Shown here: piece after piece, positions 429 to 24,757 of the stretch
Numbering within the stretch: position 1 is the first letter of the stretch
Layout: the number at the start of each line of letters is the position of its first letter
Assembly: GCA_945787575.1 (NCBI GenBank)
Contig: CALZKB010000039.1
Coordinates: forward strand, 8,432 to 56,442
DNA: 48,011 bases
DNA from: Thermoanaerobaculia bacterium
Lineage (GTDB): Bacteria > Acidobacteriota > Thermoanaerobaculia > Multivoradales > JAHEKO01
Reading direction: 5' to 3'
Notes under the pieces: generated by a model
Told to the model about the DNA's origin: nothing
What the model saw: only the letters and a program-made list of their open reading frames with translations
The model's database searches: none
Translations under genes and position numbers: made by a program

Positions 429-1043
429 TCAGTCGCGCAGGAACCTCCAAGACCGCGGCACGAGCCGCGGGACCCGACGATAGTAGTCGTCGTAGGCCAC
501 GCCGAAGCGTCGGCGGAGCTCGCGCTCCTCGAGAATCGCGATCCCGTAGAAACCCACGCCCGTCGCCAGTGTCATCCAGTAGAGACCACCGATGTTGAGA
601 ATCAGAGCCCAGCCGGCCAGGCCGATCATCACGTCGAGGTAGCGCGGATTACGGGTGTGAGCGTAGATCCCTTCGGTCAGCAGGACGCCGGTCTCACCTC
701 GCTTGAGCTCCGGGACTCCGACCAGAGTCCGCAGCTTGAGATGCCGCCGGCACTTGGCCTCGATCACGACCGCGACGGCATAAAGAGCGAGCCCGAGGGC
801 CACGAGGACCGGGCGCATCGGACCGCGGTCGCCGAGGCCCGGCTCCCGAAACTGCCAAGCGATACCCCCAACGAGGACCATCGCCAAGGTCGCCACTGAG
901 TAGGCGACTGCCAGACCCCGGCGGCGCCAGAACGCCGCCAGCGGGTGGATGAGCAGCCAGAAGCCCACGGCCGCCGGCAGGGAGAGCCACAAGCTCAGAG
1001 CGACGTAGTAGCGTGCCGACTCCAGCCAACTCGGCACACTCAT
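429..1043 (-). CDS. isoprenylcysteine carboxyl methyltransferase (ICMT/PEMT)-family membrane methyltransferase
   Basis: This 204-residue integral membrane protein has hydrophobic spans near residues 12-34, 45-63, 78-95 and 135-165. The C-terminal half carries the ICMT/phospholipid-methyltransferase signature: LLTEGIYAHTRNPRYL followed by a paired-helix segment, then EERELRRRFGVAYDDYYRRVPR. In this family those residues bind S-adenosylmethionine, and the Glu-Glu and Tyr motifs sit at the membrane face. The substrate (isoprenylcysteine-like thiol, lipid amine or other) cannot be told from sequence. Length is typical. The start is ATG. It lies 37 nt downstream of apaG on the same strand and may be its last operon member. 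Confidence 0.85.
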   Translation of the reverse strand: MSVPSWLESARYYVALSLWLSLPAAVGFWLLIHPLAAFWRRRGLAVAYSVATLAMVLVGGIAWQFREPGLGDRGPMRPVLVALGLALYAVAVVIEAKCRRHLKLRTLVGVPELKRGETGVLLTEGIYAHTRNPRYLDVMIGLAGWALILNIGGLYWMTLATGVGFYGIAILEERELRRRFGVAYDDYYRRVPRLVPRSWRFLRD

Positions 1044-1080
1044 CGTGAATCTCGACGCCGTGGCCAGCTGCGAGCGCTGG

Positions 1081-1494
1081 TCAATTCACCGTGGACGGTT
1101 CGCACAAGACGAACGGCGCGATGTCGACGTCGAACGGCTCGCCGTCGTCGTCGATCATCTGATAGCTCCCCTCCATCTTGCCGACGTCGGTCGACAGCGG
1201 GCAGCCTGAGGTGTATTCGAACGCATCGCCCGGCTCCAGGATCGGCTGCTCGCCGACGACACCCGGGCCCTGGACCTCTTCGACTCGGCCGACGCCGTCG
1301 GTGATCACCCAATGCCGATTCAACAGCTGGACGGTGCCCGCGCTCTCATTGCGTATGGTGACCTGGTAAAGGAAGAACCATTTGCCTTGCGCCGGCTGCG
1401 AGCGCTGCGGATCGAACCGCGGACGAACGCGCACCCGGATACCCCGGGTCACGGCTTCCGAAGAGAACGATTCGTTGGTCTTGCCCGCAGTCAC
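1081..1494 (-). CDS. apaG: ApaG (Co2+/Mg2+ efflux-associated protein)
   Basis: The 137-residue product is a single ApaG/DUF525 domain, an Ig-like beta sandwich. Its signatures are FFLYQVTIRNES, LLNRHWVITDGVG and VEEVQGPGVVGEQPILEPGDAFEYTS (read in order), then the closing MEGSYQM strand. ApaG is linked by genetics to Co/Mg homeostasis and diadenosine tetraphosphate levels, but its biochemical role is unsettled. The start is GTG at 1494, which overlaps the stop of the upstream oligopeptidase gene as GTGA. No separate Shine-Dalgarno is visible, which suggests translational coupling. Length is normal for the family. Confidence 0.93.
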   Translation of the reverse strand: MTAGKTNESFSSEAVTRGIRVRVRPRFDPQRSQPAQGKWFFLYQVTIRNESAGTVQLLNRHWVITDGVGRVEEVQGPGVVGEQPILEPGDAFEYTSGCPLSTDVGKMEGSYQMIDDDGEPFDVDIAPFVLCEPSTVN

Positions 1495-3560
1495 GCCGAG
1501 CCAGTTCTATCACGACGCTCGGCGCCGAGACGAAGGAGGAGGAATGCGTACTCGAACGCCCTTTCCCTCAGGTAGGCGTAGCGACCGGAGGGGCCGCCAT
1601 GCCCCGCGCTCAGATCGATCTTCAGCAGCAACGGATTGTCATCCGATTTCAAAGCCCTCAGCTTGGCGACCCATTTTGCCGGTTCCCAGTACTGGACGCG
1701 GGGGTCGTTCAGCCCCGCTGTCACGAGCATCGCCGGATAGTCCGTCTCGCGTACGTTGTCGTACGGTGAGTACGAGAGCATCGCCTCGAAAAGCTCTTTG
1801 TCGGCTGGGTCGCCCCACTCCTCGTACTCGATCACGGTCAGCGGGATCGTTTCGTCGAGCATGGTGTTGACGACGTCGACGAACGGAACCGACGCGAGGA
1901 CGACGGCGAACAGATCGGGGCGGAGGTTGACGGCGGCCCCGAGCAGGAGGCCGCCGGCGCTCCCCCCGCGAATCGCCAACCGTTTGGGCGACGTGTAGCC
2001 ATCGTCGACGAGAAGCTCGGCGGCCGCGATGAAATCGGTGAATGTGTTGCTCTTGGCGAGCATCTTGCCGTCGTCGTGCCAGCTCTCTCCCATCAGCGCG
2101 CCGCCCCGGACGTGGGCGATCGCGCAGACGAACCCGCGATCGAGCAGGGTCAGGTGGAGCGAAGAGAAGACGGGATCGACGGTCACGCCGTAGGCGCCGT
2201 AGGCGCCGAGCAGGCACGGATTCGTTCCGTCGAGGGCGAGGTCGCGCCGGTGGACGATCGAAACGGGCACCTCGACGCCGTCCGGGGCGCTCGCCATGAG
2301 TCTCCGCGTCTCGTAGAAGTTCGGGTCGTATCCGCCGACGACCTCCTCCCGCTTGGCGACCTCCAGCCGCCGCTCCGACACCCGGTAGTCGAAGACCGTC
2401 GACGGGGTGACCAGCGACGAATAGCCGAAACGATAGCGGTCGCTATCGAATTCGGGGTTGCTCCCCGCCCAGAGGGCGTAGACGCTCTCGGGCAGCTTCA
2501 CACGATAGTCCGGATCGCCGTCGAACGACCGCAGCCGAAGATGCAGCAGACCGCCCTCGCGCTCGCCGAGGACCATCCGGTCGGCGAAAGGATCGATCCA
2601 TTCGACGGTCACCTCGGAGCGATGGGGGATGAGCTCCGTCCAGTCCTCCATCGCCGTGGCGTCGAGAGAAGTCTCCATCACCCGGAAGTTCTTGGCTTCG
2701 AGATTGGTGTGTACGTAGAAGCGGTCGCCGCGATGGCCGATGTCGTACTCGACGTCGGGGCGCCTCTCAGCGAAGCACCTGAACGACCCCTCTGGGTCGT
2801 CGGCTTCGAGAATATGGACCTCCGAAGTCACGCTGCTGGCCACGGACAGAACCAGATAGGCGCGGCTGCGAGTGAGCCCGACGTCGACGAAGAAGCGCTC
2901 GTCCGCCTCCTCGAAGACGACGGCGTCGGCGTTGGCATCGTCGCCCAGACGATGGCGATGAACCCGGTAAGGCCGGTGCGCGGCGTCGAGCGTCGTGTAG
3001 AAGAGCGTCCGATCGTCGGCTGCCCAGGCGAGCGAGTAGTAGACGTCCTCGATCCGGTCCGCCAGCAGGTCGCCAGAGTCGAGGTCGCGAATCACCAGGC
3101 GGAACTTCTCGTCACCGTCGGTGTCGAACGAGTAGGCGAGATAGCGATGGGTGTTGCTAACCGCGAGGTTTCCGAGCTCGAAGTAATCGTGGCTCTCGGC
3201 CAGAGCGTTGACGTCGAGGAGGATCTCCTCTTCGCTATCGAGGCTGCCTCGTTTTCGGCAGTGGATCGGGTAGGCCTTTCCCTCCTCGGTGCGAGCGTAG
3301 TAGTGGAAGTCGCCGTCGCGTGACGGCGGCGACGAATCGTCCTCGCGGATGCGCCCGAGCATCTCCCTGTAGAGCGCCTCCTGGAGTTCCTTGGTCGGCT
3401 CCATCACCGTCGACGTGTAGGCGTTCTCCGCTTCGAGGTAGGCCATGACCTCAGCGGATTCGCGATCGCGCAGCCAACCGTAATCATCGACCAGCACCTG
3501 GCCATGCACCGTTCTCACTCGTCTCTCGCGCCGCGCCAGGGGAGGCGCCGGACGGCTCAA
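1491..3560 (-). CDS. ptrB: oligopeptidase B (S9A prolyl oligopeptidase family)
   Basis: This serine peptidase should cleave small peptides after basic residues. An N-terminal beta-propeller (about residues 70-400) precedes an alpha/beta hydrolase domain. The catalytic triad is visible: Ser534 in GGSAGG, Asp619 in AGLNDPRVQYWEP and His654 in SAGHGGPSGR. The N-terminal VLVDDYGWLRDRE...YLEAEN block is typical of oligopeptidase B. The frame is open up to 3731, but that would run into the upstream gene. I choose TTG at 3560 (about 689 aa, the normal family length) because it has GGAG upstream and because its TTGA overlaps the TGA that ends the ancestral reading frame of the upstream NUDIX-MBL gene. 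No signal peptide is seen, so it is probably cytoplasmic. Confidence 0.9.
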   Translation of the reverse strand: MSRPAPPLARRERRVRTVHGQVLVDDYGWLRDRESAEVMAYLEAENAYTSTVMEPTKELQEALYREMLGRIREDDSSPPSRDGDFHYYARTEEGKAYPIHCRKRGSLDSEEEILLDVNALAESHDYFELGNLAVSNTHRYLAYSFDTDGDEKFRLVIRDLDSGDLLADRIEDVYYSLAWAADDRTLFYTTLDAAHRPYRVHRHRLGDDANADAVVFEEADERFFVDVGLTRSRAYLVLSVASSVTSEVHILEADDPEGSFRCFAERRPDVEYDIGHRGDRFYVHTNLEAKNFRVMETSLDATAMEDWTELIPHRSEVTVEWIDPFADRMVLGEREGGLLHLRLRSFDGDPDYRVKLPESVYALWAGSNPEFDSDRYRFGYSSLVTPSTVFDYRVSERRLEVAKREEVVGGYDPNFYETRRLMASAPDGVEVPVSIVHRRDLALDGTNPCLLGAYGAYGVTVDPVFSSLHLTLLDRGFVCAIAHVRGGALMGESWHDDGKMLAKSNTFTDFIAAAELLVDDGYTSPKRLAIRGGSAGGLLLGAAVNLRPDLFAVVLASVPFVDVVNTMLDETIPLTVIEYEEWGDPADKELFEAMLSYSPYDNVRETDYPAMLVTAGLNDPRVQYWEPAKWVAKLRALKSDDNPLLLKIDLSAGHGGPSGRYAYLRERAFEYAFLLLRLGAERRDRTGSA

Positions 3561-3619
3561 GCGCCTGGCTCCAACCGCCCGAGAACGGTGAGTCGATCGA
3601 GGTGGGCGACGATCTGACT

Positions 3620-5155
3620 TTAAGCCAGCGGAAAGGCCATCGGCGCGAGATCCTCGGAGACTTCGCTTCGGATCTCCGCCGGCTTCTGCAGTCCGCTGCG
3701 CCAAGCCGCCAGCACCTTGACCTCGCGCCACAGTCGATGCCGGCGGTACTCCTCGAGCTTACCGGCGGCGTCGAGCACGGTCGGTCCGTGTGCGGGAAAA
3801 AGGGTCCTGGGAGCGAGCGCCTCGAGTCGCTCGAGGGTTTCGAGATACTGCTGCATGTCCCCCTCGGGAGGGTCGATTACAATGGTCCCGAATCCGGCCA
3901 CGACGTCGCCTGCGACGAGCGAGCCGAGCTCCTCGTGCAAGAAAGCCAAGTGACCGCGGGCGTGTCCCGGTGTGTGAATGGCCCGCACCGTGAAGCCGTC
4001 GTCGAGTGACGTCCGCTCGCCGTCCTCGATCTCGCGATCGACCTCGACCTGCCCCTCGAGCCTTCGGGCGGTCGCCGCATGCGCGGCGATCGCCAGCCCG
4101 CACCGCTCGCGCAGAGCCGTCGCCCCGCCGACATGGTCCGGATGATGATGGGTCAGCCAGATCTCCCGCACCCGGCGACCCAGCGTTCGCGGCGCCGACT
4201 CGACGGCCTCCGCCAGCCAGTCGATCTCGCGCTCGAACGGGCTTCCCGGATCGATCAGCACCGCATCGCCGGTGCCCAGCAAGTAGCAGTTGGTGAAGGC
4301 GGCGGGAGGGAGAGTGGGGGTGCGAACCGGCAAGAGGACGACGCCCGGCCGGAACTCGACAAGCCGGAACGGGCCGAGATTCGCGTCCTCGGGAAGCCGC
4401 ATCCGCTCGCGGCCGGCGACCACCCCCTGCTCGTCGAGAACGGCTAGCAGATGGAGGATCGGTGGTGCCGTGAGCACCTCGCCCCGCTTCCAGCGCGCCA
4501 GCGCCTCGCGAGGCCGGATCCACTCGCCGCCGACCGCTTCGACGGTGTCGGCGGTGGGCTGAATCGGCTCGGCAGCCGGCCATTCGAGAAGGAAGAAGCG
4601 GTTGTCGAACCGCAGCGGTCCGAGCGGTGGGGTCAGCCAGCGGCCGGCGTAGACCAGCCGCGAGGCGTCGAGTCCGACCGCGAGCTCCGCCACGACCTCG
4701 CGGAACTCCAGCCGGCGCCCGATCGAAGCTTCGCGCAGCTCGAGAAGTCGATCGGAGGTGGCACTCTCCTCGAGTCCGGGCAGGACGCCGACTTCTTCGA
4801 AGAGCTCGCGCAGCGCGGCCGCCGTCACGCCGGGCGCGAGAATCGGCTCGAGCTCACCCACTTCGTCGAGAACCGATTCCGGCATCCCAGCGGCCACCGG
4901 AGCGCCAGCCACACCCTCGACCTCCCCCGCCACCTCGATGTCGGCATCACGCTTGGAGACGCCCCCTCCCGGAAACGCGTGCCAGCCACCCATGAACTTC
5001 ATCGTCGGGGAGCGCTCGATCCAAAACACCTCGAGGTCGGCCCCATCCCCCCGCCAGAGGACGACGCTCGCCGAAGCGCGCGGCGGCGGCATCGGTACCA
5101 GTGGGCCGCTCGCCACCCTGGCGAGCACCTGTTCGTAGAGGGTCGTCGCGGCCAT
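3620..5155 (-). CDS. NUDIX hydrolase-metallo-beta-lactamase fusion with premature stop
   Basis: Residues 1-230 form a NUDIX domain of the NUDT19-like type: SVVLWRGDGADLEVFWIERS, WHAFPGG at 58-64, and RELFEEVG (REUxEExG) near 116-123 after a long insertion. Residues 265-470 form an MBL-fold hydrolase of the LACTB2/glyoxalase II type. Its metal ligands are visible in THHHPDH (335-341), HTPGHARGH (394-402), AGDVV (415) and PAHGP (455). A C-terminal winged helix begins after 470 but is cut by TAA at 3620-3622. The same frame continues with SQIVAHLDRLTVLGRLEPGA to TGA at 3557-3559, the expected end of that domain. The start is ATG. A pyrophosphohydrolase plus hydrolase or nuclease activity is inferred; substrates are unknown. 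Confidence 0.85.
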   Translation of the reverse strand: MAATTLYEQVLARVASGPLVPMPPPRASASVVLWRGDGADLEVFWIERSPTMKFMGGWHAFPGGGVSKRDADIEVAGEVEGVAGAPVAAGMPESVLDEVGELEPILAPGVTAAALRELFEEVGVLPGLEESATSDRLLELREASIGRRLEFREVVAELAVGLDASRLVYAGRWLTPPLGPLRFDNRFFLLEWPAAEPIQPTADTVEAVGGEWIRPREALARWKRGEVLTAPPILHLLAVLDEQGVVAGRERMRLPEDANLGPFRLVEFRPGVVLLPVRTPTLPPAAFTNCYLLGTGDAVLIDPGSPFEREIDWLAEAVESAPRTLGRRVREIWLTHHHPDHVGGATALRERCGLAIAAHAATARRLEGQVEVDREIEDGERTSLDDGFTVRAIHTPGHARGHLAFLHEELGSLVAGDVVAGFGTIVIDPPEGDMQQYLETLERLEALAPRTLFPAHGPTVLDAAGKLEEYRRHRLWREVKVLAAWRSGLQKPAEIRSEVSEDLAPMAFPLA

Positions 5156-5215
5156 CCGCGGTACTTATCACAGAGCCGGGGCGCGATTCAGGCCGGCAGC
5201 TGCTAGATTCCCGCC
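5156..5215. promoter_or_regulatory. divergent promoter between NUDIX-MBL and aminotransferase genes
   Basis: Only 60 nt separate the two start codons. On the plus strand TGCTAGATT (hexamer TAGATT at 5204-5209) lies 6 nt before the ATG at 5216, so the transcript probably starts at or next to the start codon. On the minus strand TGATAAGTA lies just before the ATG at 5155 and is a weaker candidate. No Shine-Dalgarno is seen for either gene. Confidence 0.45.
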
Positions 5216-6364
5216 ATGCCACGCCATCCTCGAGTCTCCTCCTCCGTGCGCTCGATGCCGGGCTCCGTCTACACGTCGCTCGCCCGCAAGATGGCGACCC
5301 ACGAGGGTCGAGTCTACCCGCTTCACGTCGGAGACACTTGGATGGAGCCGGCGATCGGCTGCCGGATGGAGGACTTGAGCGAACGCGACTGGCCGGGGCT
5401 CCATCGATACGCCCAGCCGCAGGGTCGCCCCGATCTGCGGGAGGCGATCGCCCGGCGAACGAGCGAGAGGATGGGACTCGCGACCGACGCCGGCGAGGTC
5501 CTCGTCGCAGCGGGAGCGACCGGCGCTCTCGGCGCCATGGCGGGCGCGATCATCGAGCCTGGCGACGAGGTGCTCATCCTCGCCCCTTACTGGCCTCTCA
5601 TCGCCGGTATCGTGCGCTCGTTCGGCGGCCAGCCGGTGCCCGTCCCCTTCCTCGGCCAGGTTTCCTCCGCCGCCGAGGGGCTCGAGGCGGTCGAGGCCTA
5701 CGCGAACGACCGCACGATCGCGCTCTACCTCAACACTCCCAACAACCCGACCGGCCGCCTGCTCGAGCGCGCCTGGATCGAAGCTCTCGTCGACTGGAGC
5801 CGCGACCGGGATCTGTGGCTCATCGCCGACGAGGTCTACGAGGACTATGTCTACGCCGGTGAGCACACCTACACTCGGCCTCTCGCTCCCGAGCGTACGT
5901 TCTCCACTCATTCGTTCTCCAAGGCCTTCGGCATGGCGGGCAATCGCTGCGGCTACATCGTCGGACCCGAAGAGGTCATCAAGGAGGTGCGCAAGGTCAG
6001 CACCCACACCTTTTACTCGACTCCGACCGCCTCCCAGGTCGCGGCCTTGCGAGCCTTGGAGATCGCCGACGCTTGGATCGCGAACGCGAGAGAGAGATAC
6101 GCCGCGCTGGGCCGTTTCACCGCCGAACGACTCGGCGTCGAGCCGCCGTCCGGAAGCGCCTTCCTCTTCCTCGACGTCGTCGACCGACTCGACGACCGAG
6201 GCCTCGGCGGCTTCCTCGAGGACGCCGCCGATCGCGGCCTCTTCCTATCGCCCGGCACGAGCTTCGGACCCTACCCGACTCACGTCCGCATCTGCTTCAC
6301 CGCCGCCGAGCCGGCCCTCATCCACGAGGGGGTCGAACTGTTGGCGGAGTTGATGGGCCGCTAA
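5216..6364 (+). CDS. PLP-dependent class I/II aminotransferase
   Basis: This 382-residue fold-type I aminotransferase has the family hallmarks: NNPTG at 176-180, Asp205 and Tyr208 in IADEVYED (pyridine-N and O3' contacts), the Schiff-base Lys236 in SFSKAFGMAGNRCGY, and a C-terminal Arg in the HVRICFT motif that should bind the substrate carboxylate. It belongs broadly with aspartate/kynurenine-type aminotransferases; the exact substrate cannot be assigned. The ATG start sits 6 nt after an extended -10 box, with no Shine-Dalgarno. It is monocistronic, since the next gene is convergent. Confidence 0.9.
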   Translation: MPRHPRVSSSVRSMPGSVYTSLARKMATHEGRVYPLHVGDTWMEPAIGCRMEDLSERDWPGLHRYAQPQGRPDLREAIARRTSERMGLATDAGEVLVAAGATGALGAMAGAIIEPGDEVLILAPYWPLIAGIVRSFGGQPVPVPFLGQVSSAAEGLEAVEAYANDRTIALYLNTPNNPTGRLLERAWIEALVDWSRDRDLWLIADEVYEDYVYAGEHTYTRPLAPERTFSTHSFSKAFGMAGNRCGYIVGPEEVIKEVRKVSTHTFYSTPTASQVAALRALEIADAWIANARERYAALGRFTAERLGVEPPSGSAFLFLDVVDRLDDRGLGGFLEDAADRGLFLSPGTSFGPYPTHVRICFTAAEPALIHEGVELLAELMGR

Positions 6365-6445
6365 GCCTGCACTTTTCACCCCGTTTCGAGCGAGACGGTG
6401 GAGATGCTTGTGCCCGCGAGGCGACGCGACCGAGGGCACCACAGG

Positions 6446-21601: not shown

Positions 21602-22609
21602 ATGGCGCGCACGAGCCAGGAGGAACAGAAACGGCGGCGGCGCAGCCGGCTGCTCAAGGGGCTGGTCGTCGGCGGTGCCGCGGTCGGTATTCCCGCGCTC
21701 GCCAACGCCCTGATCGCCCGGCGCAACCGCCGACTCCCCAAGGCGTCCTGGGGAGACCTCCAACGATACGCTTGGCGCCTAGGCGAGATCACGTATCAAC
21801 GGCTCGGCAGCGGCGAGCCGATGGTATTGATCCACTCATTCGGCCCAGGTCACGACAGCGAGGAATGGCGCCAAGTCGCCCTTGCCCTCGCTGACCATTA
21901 CAGTGTCTACGTGATCGACCTGCTCGGTTGGGGACGCTCCGAGAAGCCCAATCTGACCTACGATGGTGAGCTCTACATCCAACTGCTGAGCGAGTTTCTG
22001 GACGACATCGTCGAGGAGCGAAGTGTGATTCTCGCGGCGGGCCTCGGAGCGGCCTACTCGGTCCAGGTCGCAGTCGATCGTCCCGAGGCCGTGAGCTCCC
22101 TGGGGCTGGTCGTCCCTTCCGGTCTCGACACCGAGGGCGACGAGCCCGATCTCAAGGACGCCCTGGTGCACTGGCTGTTGCGGACACCGATCTTCGGCAC
22201 CTCCGCCCTCAACCTCCTGACCAGTCGCACGGCGCTCGGGCAGCACCTGAGAGGCGAGATTCTGTACGCCCCCGAGCGTGCCGACGCCACCCGCATCGAG
22301 CATCTCTATCGATCGAGCCACCAACCAGGGGCTCATGCCGCCCTCGCGGCCTATCTCAGCGGCTATTCGAACCACCGAGTAGTCGACGCCCTCGCCCGAC
22401 TGACACAGCCAGTCTGGCTGGCTTGGGGACGCCGGGCAAAGAACCCGACGGTCGAGACCGCTGATCTCTGGCTTCAACGGGCGCCTCACGCCGAGCTCGA
22501 GGTCTTCGAAGAGAGCGGCAACCTTCCTCACCTCGAGGAGTTCACGGCTTTCGCCGGCAGCATCCGGAGATACCTCGAGCGCCAGTCCGAGCCGATCACG
22601 CTCGACTGA
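21602..22609 (+). CDS. alpha/beta-hydrolase-fold protein lacking the catalytic serine (possible pseudoenzyme)
   Basis: The 335-residue chain starts with a basic tail and a hydrophobic segment (about 19-37), a likely membrane anchor. The hydrolase core is recognisable: PMVLIHSFGPG, VYVIDLLGWGRSEKP, a nucleophile-elbow region and a final His in SGNLPHLEEF. The elbow, however, reads LAAGLGAAYSV where active members have GxSxG, so the nucleophile is Gly. The usual acid in the WG-x-x-D loop is replaced in WGRRAKNP. It may be a non-catalytic scaffold or use different chemistry. The gene is otherwise intact, which argues against simple decay. Confidence 0.8.
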   Translation: MARTSQEEQKRRRRSRLLKGLVVGGAAVGIPALANALIARRNRRLPKASWGDLQRYAWRLGEITYQRLGSGEPMVLIHSFGPGHDSEEWRQVALALADHYSVYVIDLLGWGRSEKPNLTYDGELYIQLLSEFLDDIVEERSVILAAGLGAAYSVQVAVDRPEAVSSLGLVVPSGLDTEGDEPDLKDALVHWLLRTPIFGTSALNLLTSRTALGQHLRGEILYAPERADATRIEHLYRSSHQPGAHAALAAYLSGYSNHRVVDALARLTQPVWLAWGRRAKNPTVETADLWLQRAPHAELEVFEESGNLPHLEEFTAFAGSIRRYLERQSEPITLD

Positions 22610-22654: not shown

Positions 22655-23935
22655 ATGGCAGGCATCTTCAAGGCGTACGACGTGCGCGGGGTGTACCCCG
22701 ACCAGCTCGACGAGAATCTGGCCCGCTCGATCGGGCTCGCCTTTCAGCACGTTCTCGACGCCGCCGACAGGGCCGACAACAAGACGGTGGTCGTCAGCCG
22801 CGACATGCGCGCGAGCAGTGTGCCGCTCGCCGAGGCGCTGATCGACGGCCTCACCGCGTCCGGTCTCGATGTTCTCGATATCGGGCTTGCAACGACACCG
22901 ATGAACTACTTCGCCACCGGCCACCTCGACGCGGCGGGAGGCATTCAAGTCACGGCCAGCCACAATCCCGGTCGCTACAACGGCTTGAAGTTCAGCCGAA
23001 AGGGCGCCCGACCGGTGTCGGGAGACTCGGGAATCGCCAGGATGGAGCGGGCGATAGCCGAAGGCGACCTCCCGCGCGCCGAGACCCCCGGCACCCACAC
23101 CAACGGCGCCATCGCCGAGGACTACGCCGCCCACGTCCTCTCCCACCTCAAACGACCGGCCGACGCCCGTACGCTCCGGGTGGCCGCCGACGCCGCCAAC
23201 GGAATGGGCACGATCTACAGGCCGCTGCTCGAGCGGCTGGGGATCGAGCTCATCCCGCTCTACTTCGAGCTCGACGGCACCTTCCCGAACCATGAGGCCA
23301 ACCCTCTCAAGCTCGAGAACCTCCGCGACCTGCGTGAGCTGGTGCTCGCTGAGGGGGCCGATCTCGGGGTCTGCTTCGACGGTGACGCCGATCGCGCGGC
23401 TTTCGTCGACGAGCGGGGTGAGCCGGTCGGCAGCGATCTTTCGACCGCGCTCATCGCCGGCGAGATCCTCGAGCGCGAGCCCGGCGCGGCGATCGTCTAC
23501 GACCTGCGTTCGTCGCGCGCGGTCGCCGAGTACATCGAGGAGCACGGCGGCGTTCCCATTCGCGAGCGGGTCGGTCACTCGTTCATCAAGGCCACTTTGC
23601 GAGAGCACGACTCACCCTTCGGCGGCGAACTGGCGGGTCACTACTACTTCCGGGACAACTACACCGCCGACTCGTCGCTGATGGCGGTCATCGAGATTCT
23701 CAACCTCCTGTGGAAGAGCGGCGAATCGATGTCGAAGCTCGCCGGCCGGGTGATGCGCTACGCCAAGTCTCCGGAGATCAACTTCGAGGTCGAGGACAAG
23801 GCGGGCGCCATCGCCGAGCTCGAGGAGCGCTATCCCGACGGCGAGGCCGACCGCCTCGACGGCATCAGAACGCGCGCGAAAGCGAGGCCGGTCACAGGTG
23901 CCGGCCCTACCGGTAGGGTGCTTCTCCGCCGGTAG
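22655..23935 (+). CDS. phosphomannomutase/phosphoglucomutase, missing C-terminal domain 4
   Basis: Domains 1-3 of an alpha-D-phosphohexomutase are clear: FKAYDVRG, the phosphoserine loop GIQVTASHNPGRYNG, the metal loop FDGDADRAAF, and the sugar loop GGELAGHYYF. Enzymes of this family interconvert hexose 1- and 6-phosphates for exopolysaccharide and LPS sugars. Domain 4 should follow ADRLDGIR with a WxxxRxSNTEP-type phosphate clamp. Instead the homology stops at about 23870, and the frame runs through an unrelated hairpin-rich sequence to TAG at 23933. The product (426 aa) is therefore 30-50 residues short and lacks a key phosphate-binding site. The start is ATG 22655. Confidence 0.85.
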   Translation: MAGIFKAYDVRGVYPDQLDENLARSIGLAFQHVLDAADRADNKTVVVSRDMRASSVPLAEALIDGLTASGLDVLDIGLATTPMNYFATGHLDAAGGIQVTASHNPGRYNGLKFSRKGARPVSGDSGIARMERAIAEGDLPRAETPGTHTNGAIAEDYAAHVLSHLKRPADARTLRVAADAANGMGTIYRPLLERLGIELIPLYFELDGTFPNHEANPLKLENLRDLRELVLAEGADLGVCFDGDADRAAFVDERGEPVGSDLSTALIAGEILEREPGAAIVYDLRSSRAVAEYIEEHGGVPIRERVGHSFIKATLREHDSPFGGELAGHYYFRDNYTADSSLMAVIEILNLLWKSGESMSKLAGRVMRYAKSPEINFEVEDKAGAIAELEERYPDGEADRLDGIRTRAKARPVTGAGPTGRVLLRR

Positions 23936-24066
23936 GCGGGGAACCCGTGCCCCCGGCGGGTCGCCAGAGGCGACCCCAGAGGACAGGGACCCGGTCGTAC
24001 GCGTCAGTCCGACAACCGAGCCGAAAGCACGAGCCACGGAACTGGGCCCCAGGGAGGTGCCGATAG
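23871..24066 (+). other. hairpin-rich element interrupting the phosphohexomutase gene (possible group II intron 5' fragment)
   Basis: Just where the mutase homology ends, five stems follow in quick succession: GGCCGG/CCGGCC (23886-23906), the perfect palindrome CCCTACCGGTAGGG (23905-23918), CCGCC/GGCGG (23926-23939), CCCG/CGGG (23944-23960) and GTCGCC-AGA-GGCGAC (23960-23974). Purine-rich joints with GAAAGC motifs (GCGCGAAAGCG at the left, GAGCCGAAAGCACGAG later) look like structured RNA. The layout resembles domain I at the 5' end of bacterial group II introns, whose first bases are GTGYG; here GCGCG is found. No intron-encoded protein or domain V is present. The identity is a guess; that it is a structured insertion is firmer. 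Confidence 0.4.
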
Positions 24067-24070
24067 CAGC

Positions 24071-24757
24071 TTAGCGCCGAGCCTTCGACAGGAAGTAGAG
24101 CAGCGTCATCAGGGTCGAGATCGCCGCGGCGACATAGGTCAGCGCCGCGGCGTTGAGAACGGCACTCACGCCTTCACGCTCCTGGCTCGTCACGATCCCG
24201 TGCTCGAACGCCAACGCCTTGGCACGGTTGGAGGCGTCGAACTCGACCGGCAGGGTCACGATCTGGAAGATCAGCGTCAGGCTGAACAACGCTGCGCCGA
24301 TGTAGATCATGGTCGGGCCGGCGTTCGACGAGAGCATAAAGAGGCCGAGTATCATCACCCAATAGCCGAGCTTCGAACCGATGTTCGCAGTCGGTACCAA
24401 CGCCGAGCGCAGCCAGAGGGGAGCGTACTTTCGCGCGTGCTGGATCGCATGTCCGGCTTCGTGACAGGCGACGCCGACGGCCGCCACCGAATTCGAGCCG
24501 AAGACTGGCTCGGACAGTGCCAGCGTCTTGGTCACCGGGTTGTAGTGGTCGGACAGAACTCCGCGGGTCGGTACGATCTTGACGTCGCTGATCCCCGCTT
24601 GCTCGAGCAGCCGAGCAGCCGATTCGGCGCCGGTGAGGCCGCCCATCGTACGCACCTGGGAGTACTTCTTGAAGGCGGACTTGGTCTTCCAACTGGCCCA
24701 CAACGACAACAGCAGAGCGGGTCCAACGAAAAGGAAATAGGTGGGGTCGAATATCAT
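24071..24757 (-). CDS. zinc metallopeptidase, YugP-type membrane protein
   Basis: The 228-residue protein has an N-terminal membrane span (4-22), a metallopeptidase core with HEAGHAIQH (HExxH motif), and three further hydrophobic spans (about 112-135, 140-165 and 200-222). LLEQAGISDVKIV...LSDHYNPVTKTLALSE is characteristic of the Zn_peptidase_2/YugP family. Substrates are unknown. The start is ATG, with AGGAG 8 nt upstream. TGCTAGAAT about 45 nt further up is a likely extended -10, which faces the divergent SDR promoter. Confidence 0.9.
   Translation of the reverse strand: MIFDPTYFLFVGPALLLSLWASWKTKSAFKKYSQVRTMGGLTGAESAARLLEQAGISDVKIVPTRGVLSDHYNPVTKTLALSEPVFGSNSVAAVGVACHEAGHAIQHARKYAPLWLRSALVPTANIGSKLGYWVMILGLFMLSSNAGPTMIYIGAALFSLTLIFQIVTLPVEFDASNRAKALAFEHGIVTSQEREGVSAVLNAAALTYVAAAISTLMTLLYFLSKARR

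Follow-up and report, generated by a model that had tools for sequence, protein, structure and literature searches.

The window analysed here, a stretch of 48,011 nucleotides from a Thermoanaerobaculia genome (G000), contains a phosphohexomutase gene of the PMM/PGM type which has lost its 3' end and now finishes in a pair of hairpins (Table 1). The gene lies between an alpha/beta hydrolase gene and a convergent gene for a putative neutral zinc metallopeptidase, both of which are ancestral neighbours.

Table 1. Features of the truncated mutase locus (positions in the window).
Feature	Position	Strand	Evidence
Alpha/beta hydrolase, ancestral upstream neighbour	21602..22609	+	Pfam; also 5' of the mutase in relatives
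Phosphohexomutase, PMM/PGM type, truncated	22655..23935	+	Pfam I-III only; relatives retain domain 4
Left edge of repeat unit (GCGCGAAAG flank), abutting the end of mutase homology	23868..23881	+	GCGAAAG-like flank recurs beside other copies
REP element 1, inverted: GGTAG - stem - ACCTGTG - stem	23882..23914	-	Covariance model R1
REP element 2, imperfect stem: GGTAG - stem - ACCCGTG - stem	23928..23960	+	Covariance model R1
TAG of the REP 2 GTAG head, stop codon of the truncated mutase	23933..23935	+	Sequence; 8 other ORFs alike
Third palindrome, GGGTCGCC-AGA-GGCGACCC	23958..23976	+	Beside REP 2 in several other copies
Spacer without domain 4 remnant, up to the zinc peptidase stop codon	23977..24070		
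Putative neutral zinc metallopeptidase PF04298, ancestral convergent neighbour	24071..24757	-	Pfam; adjoins the mutase in many relatives

Loss of domain 4 from the mutase gene

The reading frame matches the Pfam profiles PGM_PMM_I, II and III, and PGM_PMM_IV is absent. Domains I-III, with the active-site loops SHN, DGDAD and GELAGH, are intact up to codon 404 (23866), and 22 codons of repeat DNA follow, so that the frame holds three of the four domains of this enzyme type. The break falls where the initial annotation had placed it: the last base with DNA homology to the same-genus genome G002 is 23867, after LDGI. The closest solved relatives of the product are bacterial phosphomannomutase/phosphoglucomutases, and the most similar mutases among named genomes come from Acidobacteriota, many of them Thermoanaerobaculia, which points to that class as the most likely source of the window.

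In all 29 complete relatives, LDG(I/V) runs on into a compact domain 4 of 45-50 residues with the sequence WW-x-NVRPSNTEP. The same holds for a partly overlapping set of 80 homologues from named genomes, where domain 4 (about 45 residues, with an R-x-S-N-T-E-P-type phosphate loop) is kept in 78 of the 78 with a readable 3' end, as RxSNTEP in 73 and as a loop variant in 5; the other two run off their contig or are broken early. Whether the homologues share the C-terminus of the window gene had been named as a comparison that could refute the truncation; they do not. The annotated absence of domain 4 downstream of the hairpins was borne out as well: a domain-4 profile scored 0.0 bits on the tail (23976-24075), while random stretches of the window reached as much as 6.1 bits. 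A string in this tail, VRVSPTTEP, could be taken by eye for a remnant of VRPSNTEP and was rejected because the profile does no better there than on random stretches. Relocation of domain 4 to another place was also rejected, since a profile search of the genome returned nothing significant (best E 0.41). The tail was considered as a separate repeat too and gave short weak matches only.

The genome is a draft of 484 contigs and repeats lie at the site, which could point to an assembly or binning artefact, the organism's mutase being intact and its 5' part having been joined to a repeat by the assembler. We consider this very improbable: (i), hydrolase, mutase and convergent zinc peptidase follow one another in many relatives and still do so across the break, and both flanks are therefore native; (ii), the longest exact match of 23860-24071 to the other fetched copies is 22 bases, too short to lead the usual assemblers astray; and (iii), no orphan domain 4 is found elsewhere in the genome.

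None of 134 otherwise invariant columns is changed in domains I-III, unique changes number 3 in the truncated gene and 7 in the intact G002 gene, and dN/dS between the two is 0.15. To judge by its sequence, the three-domain part is without decay, and either the truncation is recent, on the time scale of the genus, or the stump is tolerated.

A dispersed GTAG-class REP family at the break

A few bases at most separate the start of the repeat unit from the last homologous mutase codon, and the dense hairpins of the unit, first noticed by inspection, are real: folded as single-stranded DNA, the core 23876-23985 has a z of -3.1 and none of 200 shuffles was equally stable, whereas the 210 nt taken as a whole fold about as expected from their composition (z = -1.06). 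BLASTN of the element (23860-24070) against its own genome, a check that had been proposed, gave 43 matches including the query itself. These resolve into one motif in two orientations, in which GGTAG is followed by a GC-rich stem whose two arms are joined by the loop ACC(C/T)GTG. Among the readings first offered, that of an unknown repeat is thus the one that held, BLASTN and a covariance model both describing a palindromic repeat dispersed through the genome in many copies. In an alignment of 20 copies (A1), G5 and T6 of the GTAG foot are conserved in at least 90%, A7 and G8 are invariant and the loop is nearly so. The 7-pair stem is paired in 95% of cells over these copies and 5 of the 7 pairs change on both sides, a covariation count that is inflated because the copies used for training were picked partly for pairing; the family itself was first found by BLASTN. 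The resulting 33-base model (R1) scores the first window element at 43.2 bits (E 7.8e-9 in the window, 9.2e-7 genome-wide) and the second at 29.6 bits (E 2.2e-5 in the window). Over the whole genome it finds 66 matches at E <= 0.01 and 100 at E <= 1, the latter among 150 candidates scored, of which the weakest matches may be chance. The GAAA joint remarked at the first stem (GCGAAAG) belongs to the unit, similar flanks standing beside other copies (e.g. L003, L006 and L007), and a third hairpin related to that of the window occupies the same place at L004, L005, L007 and L009.

Dense stems, GAAA joints and an insertion-like break in a conserved gene had led to the suggestion that part of a group II intron (domain I), or of another structured RNA, had entered the gene. 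The chance of this is, in our view, close to nil. The window yields no Rfam match at gathering score, and the covariance-model search that had been called for, with the E threshold relaxed to 10, returned no group II family and only hits at chance level to families unrelated to one another; a tRNA/tmRNA search found none. The repeating unit is moreover a 33-base hairpin without intron anatomy, present in about 100 copies and in both orientations.

Of 84 copies, our own codon-based gene caller places 73 between genes, 9 across the end of an ORF and 2 inside one; neighbouring genes converge at 43 of the copies not inside an ORF. Each of the nine overlapping ORFs, the mutase included, takes its stop codon from the TAG of the REP foot. 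Close pairs (within 200 bases) are inverted in 10 cases out of 10 among the listed copies, a few of the weakest matches being left out, with starts 27-46 bases apart (46 for the window pair). Together, the GTAG foot, the location, the inverted pairs and the TAG stops identify the hairpins as a GTAG-class REP doublet (BIME/REPIN) in inverted arrangement, to which is added a third small palindrome, one that accompanies some of the copies. Each element is an imperfect palindrome in the 20-40 base range with an unpaired GTAG at its foot, the family is extragenic and of high copy number, and the two REPs of a doublet are inverted at a short regular spacing.

A weak REP match (L207, G000:C8:75483-75515, E 0.04) lies inside an ORF, in a linker region of a product which by reading resembles a dihydrolipoamide acyltransferase. 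At L016, L019 and L039, REPs occur alongside another dispersed element, which is a long inverted repeat of the AGGCGAAGAAG...CTTCTTCGCCT type with a short centre.

G016, a genome from the same family, holds 26 matches to the model at E <= 0.01, and 28 other relatives hold 0-2 each. The presence of the repeat mainly in G000 and G016 suggests a recent spread, and the family is a case of expansion in one genome while most relatives nearly lack it. The proposed mover of such REPs is a tyrosine transposase of the IS200/IS605 kind, which would act on single-stranded hairpins. Ten Y1_Tnp matches are present in G000; within about 1.5 kb of these ten, in this draft genome, no significant REP was found and one weak match lies nearby. 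The G016 genome, with its 26 copies, has no Y1_Tnp match. Some tyrosine transposases of Acidobacteria fall in a group tied to terminal inverted repeats unrelated to GTAG REPs (PMC3733652), and the Y1 transposases of G000 may belong to that group. As a separate observation, frames at or beside the Y1_Tnp matches (L046, L047, L049, L050 and L053) carry short tandem duplications that differ from copy to copy, such as PTLRFQVNRAPTLRFQVNRA in L050, YLPSESLVDYLPSESLVE in L046 and a repeated GGATGAAAGTACTACC in L053.

Origin of the truncation and fate of the mutase

That the REP pair, together with a small deletion or replacement, explains the truncation is in our opinion very likely, the deletion being deduced from one draft genome. 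A REP pair lying in the spacer between the mutase and the zinc peptidase, or inserted near it, would have taken part in the event, by which about 46 mutase codons and the old spacer would have been exchanged for about 200 bases. REP insertion by itself need not delete DNA, and two routes can be envisaged: an insertion followed by a deletion, or a deletion running into the gene from a REP already present in the spacer. Whichever route was taken, the mutase now stops at the TAG of the second REP, 22 codons beyond the break. The chimeric mRNA proposed in the initial annotation is correct in this literal, if modest, sense, since these codons and the TAG of REP 2 are read together with the mutase.

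Of the four active-site loops in this superfamily, the phosphate-binding one sits in domain 4 (PMC6443537), which makes a loss or a strong impairment of activity likely; as predicted from its sequence, the truncated product of 426 residues is probably inactive or impaired. A different outcome can be conceived, in which the REP-capped three-domain mutase is a working protein under selection. Its intact domains I-III would fit such a protein, and so would its being the sole PMM/PGM-type mutase found in the genome, one GlmM-like paralogue aside. This paralogue is complete, and no further member of the superfamily was found in G000; a PGM of the type present in G001 (see below) is absent, and a hit on C33, considered as a second, redundant PGM, is not a mutase and by reading resembles an aminotransferase. 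But the lost loop belongs to the active site, domain 4 is present in every other readable homologue, and a recent event accounts equally well for the absence of decay. We thus regard a selected protein as improbable. There is likewise little reason to expect that the REP pair turned a four-domain enzyme into a stable, REP-terminated three-domain protein that is still useful where no other PMM/PGM-type mutase was found. Loss of the 3' end through the REP pair and a small deletion, with probable damage to the enzyme, is the reading we retain.

The mutase locus is unstable in this genus. In G002 the mutase is intact and an extra gene separates it from the zinc peptidase (L222, G002:C307:7600-10400, positions 237-1871), a 544-residue ORF whose product by reading resembles a multi-pass membrane protein. 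In G001 (L221, G001:C144:4000-10800, positions 956-6431) the mutase is missing and the same neighbours flank a PGM-type mutase of 749 residues along with a CofD/HAD fusion protein, an apparent replacement in place of one phosphohexomutase by another. No two of the three genomes of the genus agree in the stretch that follows the mutase position. The genus is losing this mutase by more than one route, which could be traced in further strains.

Comparison with known REP systems

The repeat is of a known kind and not a new kind of RNA, and the lineage of its host seems little described for it. GTAG REPs form a super-family of 20-40 base palindromes with an unpaired GTAG at one end, which are sited downstream of genes and between convergent genes, occur predominantly as head-to-head dimers, are found within genes in some cases and provide TAG stop codons to flanking ORFs (Di Nocera et al. 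2013, PMC3733652). The window family shares the palindrome and its foot, the copy number (about 100), the location (mostly downstream of genes or between convergent ones), the frequent inverted dimers and the stop codons, a likeness drawn from general features of the super-family and not from its 24 families taken individually. It differs by a 7-base ACCYGTG loop of its own on a GC-rich, covarying stem, and by its host, a member of the Thermoanaerobaculia in the Acidobacteriota, a phylum for which GTAG REPs seem little described.

The same GTAG foot and inverted BIME/REPIN units are reported elsewhere (PMC2817692 and PMC6006769). Like a BIME or REPIN (Nunvar et al. 2010, PMC2817692; Bertels and Rainey 2011, PMC3116915), the window doublet is an inverted REP pair with a short spacer, but no flanking RAYT gene was found for it and it has taken the place of a conserved gene's end rather than sitting outside the gene. 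Intragenic REPs, among them the Rickettsia palindromic elements (PMC3733652), offer a second parallel in that a palindromic repeat is translated as part of a protein. Such intragenic repeats are, however, read as inserts in a longer ORF, whereas the window gene ends in its repeat and has lost a catalytic domain: here a REP terminates a conserved metabolic gene.
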